From contig NZ_KI912148.1 in NCBI RefSeq assembly GCF_000517105.1, forward strand, positions 366,518-430,517: a stretch of 64,000 bases of DNA, written 5' to 3'. This stretch comes from Fischerella sp. PCC 9605 (lineage in GTDB: Bacteria > Cyanobacteriota > Cyanobacteriia > Cyanobacteriales > Nostocaceae). The notes under the pieces were generated by a model. That model saw nothing but the letters and a program-made list of their open reading frames with translations, made no database searches and had not been told where the DNA came from. Within the stretch, counting starts at the first letter, position 1. Every line of letters starts with the position of its first letter. The position numbers and the translations under genes were made by a program. Below are positions 1,123-33,476 of the stretch, piece by piece.

Positions 1123-1137
1123 CTATTCCCAATGCCT

Positions 1138-1345
1138 AGCCCTTTCAAGGTGTAATGTATTTTTCTTGGTGTCCCTACCCTACGGGAAGCCGCCCTTGCG
1201 GGCGTCTACGCTGCGCTCGAGGGCAAGCTTAGTGTCTTTGTGGTGAAAAAATTGACTTTTGAACCACCAAGGCACTAAGACACAAAGGTGAAAAGCCCAA
1301 AATTCGGGAAATTTTTTGAGGATTTTTACCCACCTTGAAAGGGCT
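1138..1345. mobile_element. MITE-like element copy A, with a nested repeat
   Basis: A perfect 15-bp terminal inverted repeat, AGCCCTTTCAAGGTG at 1138-1152 and CACCTTGAAAGGGCT at 1331-1345, bounds a 208-bp non-coding element. It is flanked by direct repeats ATTCCCAATGCC(T/C) at 1125-1137 and 1346-1358, 12 of 13 identical, as expected for a target-site duplication. Inside is an inverted pair of CTTAGTGTCTTTGTGGT and ACCACCAAGGCACTAAG type. The left inner arm is interrupted at about 1174-1228 by a second, GC-rich repeat (TACGGGAAGCCGC to GGCGTCTACG). The element has no coding capacity of its own, so a transposase would have to act in trans. The remaining bases to 1841 hold no convincing gene. 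Confidence 0.8.
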
Positions 1346-1841
1346 ATTCCCAATGCCCAATCCCCAGTCCCTTTTACGTGTAATATTTTTAACTGAATTT
1401 TTTGTTGATTTTTTCGATGGTGGGCAAGGAGTTTTTGTGATGAGAATCACTGACAACCTAAGTAACTTGTCACTGCCAGACTAAACTGAGCGTAGTTTCA
1501 TTATTCCCATGAGTAGGACAACTAGACCACAAACTGCTTGGATAAACATCAAAACTGTGATTTTAATGCCCTATTTTGAAATAAATTTAATGATTGCAAC
1601 CGTTTCCGCTGCTGCTATGTTAATAAATCTCCGTAAAAAACCTGATTTAACATTTGCAGGAATTTATCATACTGGAATTGCAGGCAAGAATTTTTGGCAG
1701 CAATACTCCTTATATTCTAAGAACACATAAAAAATCTACACTGCTGATGGTAACAAGCAAGTCACCTTGAAGGTGAATCAAGCTTAGAAAAATGCAGACT
1801 GAAATACAGTCAAGTACTAAACTGGTTTTTAAAAGCTGACT
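1346..1841. other. Gap with no supported gene
   Basis: The segment begins with CCCAATG repeat units (about 1346-1372). Short open frames of 73-75 codons exist on both strands, but they start in or overlap repeat DNA and show no recognisable protein. No terminator or promoter is obvious. Confidence 0.5.
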
Positions 1842-3104
1842 TTGTTAACTGATTTAAGAAATTGGAGTGCCTTTGTGATTCAATGGACATCCAAGTATAC
1901 AGGCTCTACCGAAGAAATTGTGAGTGGATCAAACGCCCTAAATAATGTTAATAATATAGATTCAAATTATGCTGTAGCATTGCCAAAAGCAGAAGATTAT
2001 TCCTTGAACTTATCTCAAAAAGACCTGAACATTGAACAGACAGAAGCTTTGCCTGCTTTGAGCAAGCCTTATGTTAATTTTGGTTACAATGCCCTGGAAT
2101 CTAGAACACAACCAGGTGAAGGGTCTAAAGTGAATGGTTTTGATTCAGATGCGCCGAAAGTTTTAGTTGTTGATGACCATGCTGCTAGTCGTGTGACTGC
2201 TGTCGCCCTTTTAGCGATGGAAGGCTACGAAGTCATTGAAGCAGATAGTGGTTCTACTGCCGTTGAATTAGTCACCCAAAAACAACCGGATCTGATTTTA
2301 CTAGATGTGATGATGCCGGGTATGGATGGGTTTGAAGTCTGCCAATTACTCAAGCAAGATGAACATACCCGGCTAATACCAATAATTTTTGTGACGGCGT
2401 TAAATGATCGGCGATCGCGTATCCGAGGAATAGAAGTTGGGGCAGACGATTTTTTGAGCAAGCCTTTTGATCGTGTAGAATTAGCAGCTCGTGTCAAGTC
2501 GTTAGTAAGGCAAAAGCGTCTGAATGAAGACTTAGACCACGCAGAACAAGTGCTATTTTCCATAGCTAGGGCAATTGAAAGTCGCGATCCAAACACAGGC
2601 GATCATTGCGAACGGCTAGTAAAACTGGGAAAGGCTTTTGGGGAATATCTCAATCTTTCACGCAACCAAATTCGGGATTTAATGTGGGGTGGTTATCTTC
2701 ATGATATTGGCAAGGTGGGAATTCCCGACGCCGTGCTGCTCAAGCAAGGAAAACTCACGCCCGAAGAGTGGGAGATTATGAGGCAACACGTTTTGATTGG
2801 TGAAAGAATCTGTCAACCATTACGTAGTATGTGGGGTGTAATTCCTATTATCCGACACCATCACGAGCGCTGGGATGGTTCGGGCTACCCTGATGGACTC
2901 AAAGGAGAGGATATCCCCTATCTAGCACAAGTGTTTCAAATAATTGATATTTATGATGCCCTGACTAGCGAACGACCTTACAAACGGGCTTTTCTTCCAG
3001 AAGAAGCACTCATGGTGATGGAGGAAGAAACAGCTAAGGGTTGGCGCAGTCCTCAACTGATGCAGCAGTTTGCTGAATTTATTCGCACTTGTAAACAACA
3101 GTAG
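1842..3104 (+). CDS. Response regulator with HD-GYP phosphodiesterase domain
   Basis: Two-component output protein predicted to hydrolyse cyclic di-GMP. A polar, low-conservation N-terminus of about 100 residues precedes a receiver domain (PKVLVVDDHAAS at about 105, phospho-acceptor Asp in LILLDVMMPGMDG near 155, KPFD near 208). It is followed by an HD-GYP domain with an intact HD pair in GGYLHDIGKVG (about 283-293) and intact HHHERWDGSGYPDG near 340-353, so catalysis looks preserved. The longest frame begins with TTG at 1842; a GTG at 2131 just before the receiver domain, after a GAAGGG sequence, is an alternative. It stands alone, with no adjacent histidine kinase. Confidence 0.88.
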   Translation: MLTDLRNWSAFVIQWTSKYTGSTEEIVSGSNALNNVNNIDSNYAVALPKAEDYSLNLSQKDLNIEQTEALPALSKPYVNFGYNALESRTQPGEGSKVNGFDSDAPKVLVVDDHAASRVTAVALLAMEGYEVIEADSGSTAVELVTQKQPDLILLDVMMPGMDGFEVCQLLKQDEHTRLIPIIFVTALNDRRSRIRGIEVGADDFLSKPFDRVELAARVKSLVRQKRLNEDLDHAEQVLFSIARAIESRDPNTGDHCERLVKLGKAFGEYLNLSRNQIRDLMWGGYLHDIGKVGIPDAVLLKQGKLTPEEWEIMRQHVLIGERICQPLRSMWGVIPIIRHHHERWDGSGYPDGLKGEDIPYLAQVFQIIDIYDALTSERPYKRAFLPEEALMVMEEETAKGWRSPQLMQQFAEFIRTCKQQ

Positions 3105-30139: not shown

Positions 30140-31645
30140 ATGAGTAAAACCCTATCATCAGGATACGTCCTGGCACTGGATTTAGGTACAACAGGCAACC
30201 GCGCTTTTGTATTCGACGCTCTTGGCAAAATTGTTGGGCAGGCATACAAAGAACTAACACAGTATTATCCTCAGCCTGGATGGTTAGAGCATGACGCTGA
30301 GGAAATTTGGCAAGATACTTGCTGGGTGATGGAAACTGCGATCGCAAATGCCCAAATTGTCCCCAGTGATATTGCGGCGATAGGATTAACTGTACAGCGT
30401 GAAACCTGTTTAATTTGGGATAAAACCACCGGAAAACCTCTGCATCGGGCAATCGTTTGGCAAGACCGCCGTACTGCTCCTTTGTGCAATCAATTACAAG
30501 CACAAGGGTATGCTGAGGAGATTTACGATCGCACTGGTTTGGTTATCGACGCCTACTTTTCTGCTACCAAACTCAGATGGCTGTTAGACCATGTGACAGG
30601 TATTGACCTCAATCATGTTTTAGCTGGCACAATTGATACTTGGATATTGTGGAAACTAACAGGTGGAAAAGTTCATGCTACTGACCACAGTAACGCCAGC
30701 CGTACAATGTTGATGAATCTGGCAAGCTGTGCATGGGATCAAACTCTACTGGATTTATTTAAAATTCCTGTTCAGATCTTGCCCCAAATTCAGCCTAGTT
30801 TAGGACAATTTGGTGTCACCGATACTACTGTAATAAGTGCGGAAATCCCCATCACTGCTGTCTTGGGCGATCAACAGGCAGCTTTATTTGGTCACGGGTG
30901 CGATCGCCCTGGTTTAATGAAATGTACTTACGGCACTGGTAGCTTTTTAGTTGCTCACACTGGCTCAGAAATTGTGCGTTCTCAACGTCAACTCATCTCT
31001 ACAGTGGCATGGACGCAAAACCACAATGGCAGTTTAGATGTGGGCTATGCCTTGGAAGGGAGTATGTTTACTAGTGGAGCATGCATCCAATGGTTGCGGG
31101 ATGGCATCAAACTAATTAAAACTGCTGATGAGACAGAGGCGATCGCCAATCAAGTTGATGATAACGGCGGTGTATATTTTGTACCTGCATTTAGCGGACT
31201 GGGCGCACCCCACTGGGATATGAGTGCGAGGGGAGCCTTTTTTGGCATTACCGCAGCAGTGCGATCGCAGCATTTAGTTCGTGCTGTTTTGGAAGCTATT
31301 GCCTACCAAGTCAAGGAAGTCGTGCAAGCAATCAGTGGATCTAGCAGCGCACCCATACAGAAATTAACAGTGGATGGTGGTGCATGTGAGAATAATTTCC
31401 TCATGCAGTTCCAAGCAGATGTGTTAAGTATTCCGGTGGAACGTCCAGTTATGCGCGATACCACTGTTCAGGGTATTGCAATGGCGGCTGGTCTAGCGGC
31501 AGGATTTTGGGATAGTTATGAGGAATTGGTACGACAGCGGCAAATAGACCGTTATTTCTCGCCTGGTGTTGGCAGTGGATATGCAATAGCTAACTTTACC
31601 ACTTGGCAAAAGGCAGTGGAACGGGCTAAGCATTGGGTGGAGTAA
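30140..31645 (+). CDS. glpK: Glycerol kinase
   Basis: Phosphorylates glycerol to glycerol-3-phosphate with ATP. FGGY-family carbohydrate kinase of 501 residues. It has the phosphate-binding start LALDLGTTGNRAFVFDA (11-27), PQPGWLEHDAEEIW, IAAIGLTVQRET, IVWQDRRT, the substrate segment TGLVIDAYFSATKLRWLLD, GDQQAALFGHGC, MKCTYGTGSFLV, PAFSGLGAPHWD, and LTVDGGACENNFLMQFQADVL near the C-terminus. All FGGY signatures are intact. No glycerol transporter or glpD is adjacent, so it may serve glycerol salvage or lipid supply. Confidence 0.93.
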   Translation: MSKTLSSGYVLALDLGTTGNRAFVFDALGKIVGQAYKELTQYYPQPGWLEHDAEEIWQDTCWVMETAIANAQIVPSDIAAIGLTVQRETCLIWDKTTGKPLHRAIVWQDRRTAPLCNQLQAQGYAEEIYDRTGLVIDAYFSATKLRWLLDHVTGIDLNHVLAGTIDTWILWKLTGGKVHATDHSNASRTMLMNLASCAWDQTLLDLFKIPVQILPQIQPSLGQFGVTDTTVISAEIPITAVLGDQQAALFGHGCDRPGLMKCTYGTGSFLVAHTGSEIVRSQRQLISTVAWTQNHNGSLDVGYALEGSMFTSGACIQWLRDGIKLIKTADETEAIANQVDDNGGVYFVPAFSGLGAPHWDMSARGAFFGITAAVRSQHLVRAVLEAIAYQVKEVVQAISGSSSAPIQKLTVDGGACENNFLMQFQADVLSIPVERPVMRDTTVQGIAMAAGLAAGFWDSYEELVRQRQIDRYFSPGVGSGYAIANFTTWQKAVERAKHWVE

Positions 31646-31782
31646 AAGGGATTGGGGATTAGTGATTAGGGACTGAGGATTGGATTTGACATTTTCCCCA
31701 CACGCTGCTGCGCTTTGTGTGGGGATTGTCAGAATCATTTCCCAGGGTATTTTCTATCGCGCGAGAATTGGTATTACGCCCC

Positions 31783-31945
31783 AGCCCTTTCAAGGTGGAT
31801 AGAAAAAGAACCATTATCTCAGTCAAGAAGCTATATTTCCTCTTTGTGTCTTTGTGCCTTTGTGGTGAAAAAATAATTTTTGAAACACCAAGACACTAAG
31901 ACACCAAGAAATTTTCATTTTTCAGATTTACACCACCAAAGGGCT
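31783..31945. mobile_element. MITE-like element copy B at the 3' end of chlB
   Basis: A 163-bp non-coding element starting AGCCCTTTCAAGGTGG and ending CACCAAAGGGCT (inverted termini; the right end lacks three bases of the 15-bp terminus). It is flanked by perfect 13-bp direct repeats GGTATTACGCCCC at 31770-31782 and 31946-31958. The right repeat contains the chlB stop codon (TAA on the minus strand) and its last Gly-Ala codons. The inner part holds the CTTTGTGTCTTTGTGCC and CACCAAGACACTAAGACACC arms shared with copy A. It may now supply the chlB 3' end. Confidence 0.85.
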
Positions 31946-31949
31946 GGTA

Positions 31950-33476
31950 TTACGCCCCTACAGCTTCCTTCGCAGCATACAGCACTTCAACCGTGATATC
32001 TTTGATGCCTCGCTCACGAGCAAATTTCTCGGTGTTGCGCTTTACTTTACCACGCACAAAGCCAGGAATCTTGTTCAATTCTGCTAGACCATCCTTAGTC
32101 CAGTTGAGGTCAGATTCAGCCGAAATGCCCTTGGTAATAACTTCCTTAGTGTCGTGTCCACCAAAAATTTCTAACAGGTGGTCTTCCATTCCTAAGGTGA
32201 AGGAATTGTATACCAAATCGGCAATTTGGTTAGTACCTTCGTAACCCATGAATGGCTTGTAACCAATGGGGAAGTTTTGGATGTGGATGGGTGCAGCAAT
32301 CACACCGCAAGGAATATCCAGGCGCTTACCGACGTGGCGTTCCATTTGCGTACCAAAGATAGCAGCAGGCTCGACACGAGCGATCGCATCTCCAATTTGA
32401 CCGTGATCGTCAGTAATAATAACTTCATCACAGTATTCGCTGACTTGTTCACGGAACCAATCAGCATCGTACTTGCAGTAGGTTCCAGCCCAGACAACGT
32501 GAATGCCCATTTCCCGTGCCAAAATTTTGGTTATGGCAGCGGCATGAGTATTATCACCAAAGACTACTGCTTTTTTGCCGGTCAAGTTCTGACAGTCAAT
32601 TGAGCGAGAGAACCAAGCAGCCTGCGATACATGCAGGGTTTGCTCGTTGATGAATTCTTCGTAGTCTACATCAGCGCCTTGGTCGTTAACTACTTGCTGA
32701 ATTTTACGTATGCAACGAGCAGTTTCTACTACACCCATTGGAGTAATGTCTATGTAAGGCATCCCGAATTCTGCTTCTAGGTAACGAGCTGCCATTACAC
32801 CAAGTTCGCGGTAAGGCACGAGATTGAACCAAGCCCGAGGCAGATTCTTTAACTCGTGAACGGAAGCACCTTCAGGGATAACAGCATTTACCTCAATACC
32901 TAAGTCAGCCATCAACCGCTTCAACTCGGTGCAGTCGTGCTGGTTGTGGAAGCCGAGGGTAGAAATACCGATGATATTGACGGAGGGCTTTTCGGTTTTG
33001 CCTGCGGGGAGTTCGCCCTTTTTGCGAGCTTTTTCAATATAGAACTGAACAATTTGATGCAGAGTGCGATCGGCTGCTTGCAGTTCGTTGACGCGATAGT
33101 GGTTCACATCCGCTAGCATCACATCGCCTTTGGCTTCTAACTGCGCCCGTTCCACAAAGTTTTGCAGGTCTTCTTGCAGAATACTGGAGGTGCAGGTAGG
33201 GGTAAGAACAATCAGGTCTGGGGTTTCTTCCTTATCCTTGCGGGTGATGTTGTCTACTACCTTTTCTTGGGAACCGCGTGCCAAAACGTTGCGGTCAACA
33301 ACACTGGCAGTTACTGGGGTGAAGTCCCGCTCTCGTTCAAGCATGGAGCGCATGACGTTAAAGTAGTCATCGCCCAATGGTGCGTGCATGATGGCATGAA
33401 CGTTTTTGAAAGAACTGGCGATCCGCAGAGTGCCGATATGGGCAGGGCCTGCATACATCCAGTAAGCCAATTTCAT
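31950..33476 (-). CDS. chlB: Light-independent protochlorophyllide reductase subunit B
   Basis: The ChlB component of dark-operative protochlorophyllide oxidoreductase (ChlL-ChlN-ChlB), a nitrogenase-like enzyme that reduces ring D of protochlorophyllide. [29 protein letters not shown] is the standard N-terminus. [17 protein letters not shown] (about 90-106) supplies the cluster-ligand Cys region, followed by [49 protein letters not shown] and the C-terminal ChlB domain ending [13 protein letters not shown]. Full length, 508 residues. chlL and chlN are not in the window. A MITE-like element abuts the stop codon. Confidence 0.97.

Follow-up and report, generated by a model that had tools for sequence, protein, structure and literature searches.

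Both features studied in the window (the whole stretch of 64,000 nucleotides of Fischerella sp. PCC 9605 DNA that was analysed) are, with a high degree of confidence, insertions of one family of MITEs (miniature inverted-repeat transposable elements) whose shared 16-bp end is probably recognised by an IS4-like DDE transposase and whose arrival duplicates 10-12 bp of the target. That this is a genuine MITE family with a probable IS4-like helper is well supported. Elements of this kind are ordinary, the orphan status being of mild interest, and the family offers a clean bacterial case in which sequence data suffice to recognise the ends, the duplication, the empty site and the likely helper.

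The first copy occupies positions 1137-1346 (210 bp, TAGCCC...GGGCTA) and combines a 153-bp-type element with a nested 55-bp repeat. Its neighbours are a methyltransferase-family gene (80-1021) on the left and a response regulator/HD-domain gene (1842-3104) on the right. The exact inverted 15-bp ends given for it in the preliminary description were recovered at 1138-1152 and 1331-1345 and extend to 16 bp (TAGCCCTTTCAAGGTG/CACCTTGAAAGGGCTA). The left terminal inverted repeat TAGCCCTTTCAAGGTG covers 1137-1152 on the plus strand and the right one, equally exact, 1331-1346 on the minus strand. The sequence ATTCCCAATGCC flanks the element at 1125-1136 and at 1346-1357, so the flanking repeat described earlier as 12 matches in 13 is present; its T/C mismatch, however, sets a T of the element against a C of the host, and the true target-site duplication is the 11-bp TTCCCAATGCC at 1126-1136 and 1347-1357. 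Tandem ATGAATT-type repeats at 1040-1110, of the low-complexity intergenic type typical of these genomes, adjoin this copy, as does a ATTCCCAATGCCCAATCCCC tract.

The second copy spans 31782-31946 (165 bp, CAGCCC...GGGCTG). The earlier claim that it has the same terminus holds for the left end, which is exact (31783-31797); the right end (31931-31945), however, has diverged at three of 15 positions, which had been passed over. The 13-bp flanks GGTATTACGCCCC are identical on either side, as described before. Its 11-bp duplication GTATTACGCCC lies at 31771-31781 on the left and 31947-31957 on the right. To its left lies an FGGY-type carbohydrate kinase gene (30140-31645), to its right chlB (31950-33476, minus strand). 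An identification of the latter gene as nifK was rejected, given that the Pfam domains Oxidored_nitro and PCP_red mark it as the ChlB subunit of light-independent protochlorophyllide reductase. The 11-bp duplication includes the final codons of chlB together with its stop codon, which is at 31950-31952 (minus strand) in the right copy. The match of relatives to the end of chlB starts at approximately this right duplication (31947-31957), implying that the left copy arose with the insertion and the right one is native. The insertion point of copy 2 coincides exactly with the chlB stop codon; the duplication regenerates this codon, and the predicted ChlB protein is intact. Its hairpin, placed a few bases 3' of the stop, could act on termination or on mRNA stability. 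No open reading frame of at least 100 amino acids overlaps either copy, and both fold better than 200 of 200 shuffled sequences (z = -6.6 and -4.5).

Using the 15-bp end as a probe, we searched the host genome (Nostocaceae, 8.08 Mb, 12 contigs, 99.9% complete) and found 58 occurrences with at most one mismatch against none for the reversed control pattern, which places the ends seen in the window far beyond chance; a degenerate end pattern occurred 109 times, against 5 for its control. Pairing of convergent ends gave a catalogue of at least 43 elements, which are short (~123-580 bp, within a family range put at ~125-600 bp), non-coding and able to fold into long hairpins. Their ends are of two kinds, AGCCCTTTCAAGGTG or A(C/G)CCCTGTCAAGGTG; the interior that they share is palindromic, with many CACTAAGACACCAAG-like words. 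Directly outside [T/C]AGCCC...GGGCT[A/G], 33 of the 43 copies carry direct repeats of 9-12 bp that differ from copy to copy, which supports the initial proposal that a short non-autonomous element had transposed. When left and right flanks were mispaired between different copies as a control, a direct repeat appeared in 7 of 1806 combinations, an excess of ~200-fold for the real flanks. Duplications of 11 bp (13 copies) and 10 bp (12 copies) predominate, followed by 12 bp (seven) and 9 bp (one). The remaining 10 of the 43 copies show no clear duplication at the threshold of the script; one is a pairing error and others have weak repeats. The targets are biased: of 66 terminal positions, 42 hold an initial G or a final C, and the common form is GT...AC. 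The same MITE end together with the adjoining interior is also carried by Komarekiella, Westiellopsis and Nostoc genomes. Plasmid records searched for DNA similar to the MITE gave no match, and a literature search for the end sequences returned a single unrelated one.

Considering the limits of the element, a 13-bp duplication, as first proposed, does not stand: its length is 10-12 bp, 11 bp in both window copies, and the outer base pair is part of the element. If 13 bp are assumed, the two outermost positions of the repeat frequently disagree, 34 of the 43 copies having a left T and a right A there; the outermost T/A of copy 1 and C/G of copy 2 are element bases. The earlier interpretation was essentially right, but the boundaries were one base off and are now 1137-1346 and 31782-31946. 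The corrected length matters for the choice of helper family. An empty site in relatives, the comparison suggested at the outset, was found for the copy at C6:1975623-1975766, which is flanked by GAGTCGATAAT on both sides and splits a conserved gene, presumably PAP/fibrillin-like from the translation in relatives, that is uninterrupted there in more than 20 of them. The locus reads ...GGAGTCGATAAT[TGCCCC...GGGCTA]GAGTCGATAATCAG... in the host, against ...GGAGTCGATAATCAG-like sequence without a gap in relatives. Matches running through the junction were listed for 23 relatives, and the 13 of these that were checked base by base are gap-free, with one copy of the target and no element. This single target fixes the ends as [T/C]AGCCC...GGGCT[A/G], with T and A belonging to the element and a duplication of 11 bp. 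Empty sites for the two window copies were also sought in relatives and none was found, as their intergenic flanks lack conservation there. Together with the chlB stop codon, the split PAP/fibrillin-like gene shows that the family inserts at genes.

A search of 40 genomes of the family with the 16-bp end yielded three IS-sized pairs (1472, 1483 and 1507 bp), whose ends match TAGCCCTTTCAAGGTG or TAGCCCTGTCAAGGTG perfectly. All three carry a transposase, which is frame-broken in the 1472-bp element. Related copies on plasmids and in family genomes have ends such as TAGCCCTGTCAAGGTG, CAGCCCTTTCAAGGTG, CAGCCCTCTCAATATT and TACCCCTGTTAAGGTG and, at several loci, exact 10-12 bp duplications. Elements of IS size that agree with the MITEs in their ends and in duplication length support what had been offered as a guess, namely an IS4-like helper. 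The candidate transposase matches Pfam DDE_Tnp_1 and, over the full model length, NF033592 (IS4 family; E=1.9e-23, 83 bits against a cut-off of 115), and the two D residues and YxxRxxxE (Y(2)R(3)E, the third catalytic block) are present in 18 of 18 aligned sequences. In the IS4 family the YREK signature places a K seven residues after the E, and target duplications are 10-13 bp. In the aligned helper sequences the lysine is missing at the usual distance, with T, S, E or another residue instead; given this and the score below the cut-off, we name the helper IS4-like, not IS4. Related transposases with 35-40% amino-acid identity occur as far away as Azotobacter and Methylomagnum.

The clade is represented on Nostocaceae chromosomes and on plasmids of Calothrix, Nostoc sp. 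ATCC 53789, Gloeothece verrucosa PCC 7822, Azotobacter and Methylomagnum. It shares with the MITE 16-bp ends that are the same or one to few bases off, as well as the 10-12 bp duplications, and differs from it in size (~1.4-1.65 kb, some ~1.8-1.9 kb), in encoding a transposase of ~440-467 aa and in an unrelated interior. The similarity between the MITE and the helper elements seen so far ends at ~16-17 bp, which leaves internal deletion of these elements unsupported as the origin of the MITE. In the mechanism we propose, an IS4-like DDE transposase would recognise the shared end [T/C]A(G/C)CCCT(T/G)TCAAGGTG, cut out or copy the element and join it to a 10-12 bp staggered cut in the target, repair of which would leave 10-12 bp duplicated, with a preference for the form GT...AC. 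This IS group probably supplied the transposase in trans.

At E<=1e-30 the candidate helper transposase was detected in 55 of 210 family genomes but not in that of the host, and tblastn with the helper transposase revealed no intact copy in the host. The initial remark that no transposase is visible is therefore correct as regards an intact one, but the absence holds for the whole host genome rather than being a matter of what lay in view. What the host does retain is a relic, a 68-codon fragment with two stops at C10:252755-252958; a near-perfect end AGCCCTGTCAAGGCG lies ~20 bp outside it and is followed by a decayed C-terminal part of the transposase, as if internally deleted. A near-identical IS4-like pair of the host (C7:1357729 and C7:1401218) was considered as the helper and rejected, since its ends differ (GCCATTGGTGTC). 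Copy 1 is identical to the copy at C6:2146369 at 208 of 208 positions, yet the two have different duplications; another copy of the 208-bp type shows 99% identity. Identical copies with different duplications imply that the family was mobile very recently. The helper is now gone, masked or external and the family looks orphaned; the helper was probably lost from this lineage, or is supplied from outside, after this very recent movement. Such apparent loss after recent movement makes cross-mobilisation of cyanobacterial MITEs directly testable.

That copy 1 equals the copy at C6:2146369 even though the host has no intact member of the IS4-like clade would also be expected if a different, unrelated resident transposase accepted these ends and mobilised the MITEs, the clade sharing them by common use only. 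The host genome does contain 16 PF01609 stretches of other kinds. We nonetheless find this improbable: none of the PF01609 or NF033592 loci searched in the host has such ends in an IS arrangement, and the IS4-like clade matches the MITEs both in the 16-bp end and in the length of the duplication. A still weaker case, to which we give almost no credence, is that the inverted ends and hairpins represent a REP- or terminator-like structural or regulatory repeat spread by recombination, with flanking repeats that arose by chance or were tandem beforehand. The elements fold strongly, several copies lie in heptamer-type tandem repeats (ACTACTAACTACT) and copy 1 is found beside the ATTCCCAATGCCCAATCCCC tract, all of which would suit such a repeat; the duplications, however, are specific to each copy, adjoin the ends and exceed the mispaired control ~200-fold, and the single-target empty site in relatives contradicts this origin.

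The 208-bp elements differ from those of 153 bp by a 55-bp GC-rich insert, an interspersed repeat located at 1173-1227 in copy 1 (exact ends approximate) and absent from the 153-bp copies. The insert is common to three genomic copies, implying that it travelled with the element when this transposed. With up to one mismatch allowed, 24 instances of its core CGCTGCGCTCGAGGGCAAGC are present genome-wide; nesting in these MITEs is unusually frequent, eight of the ten exact cores lying inside or adjoining one. The nested repeat may prefer CTTAG words of the MITE as its target. It is conceivable, if rather doubtful, that an orphan MITE family is still moving without a resident helper of its own, by way of a diverged resident transposase or transient plasmids, and that the nested repeat is a second, smaller mobile element that prefers and rides these MITEs.

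With regard to known systems, IS4 of E. coli K-12, the prototype of the family, is comparable in its ends starting with TA, in its 12-bp duplication (ATCTTGGTTCTG in MG1655) and in its length of ~1.43 kb. It differs in its end (TAATGCC...), and there is no significant BLASTP match between its transposase and the helper. The 147 MITEs of Anabaena sp. 90 were called type II since no IS of that genome shares their ends (PMC3542288). Compared by description, they are short, non-coding and multi-copy with inverted ends, as here; they lack an IS partner in their own genome, whereas for the present family an IS with shared ends was found, though in other genomes. Nezha and the MITEs of Anabaena sp. 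PCC 7120, likened here by description rather than by sequence, are also short and non-coding, with inverted ends and many copies in Nostocales.

Some minor observations concern the surroundings of the insertions. Several copies sit in heptamer-type tandem repeats, for example ACTACTAACTACT, and several insertions fall in TAGGACTTACGCA / TGCGTAAGTCCTA words (flanks of five loci), which look like a repeat or a preferred target in these genomes. One genome (G029) harbours at least 12 MITEs of 132 bp with the same ends and a different interior, and at one of its loci two MITEs stand side by side with one duplication in common (three copies of AGCAATAGGAC).
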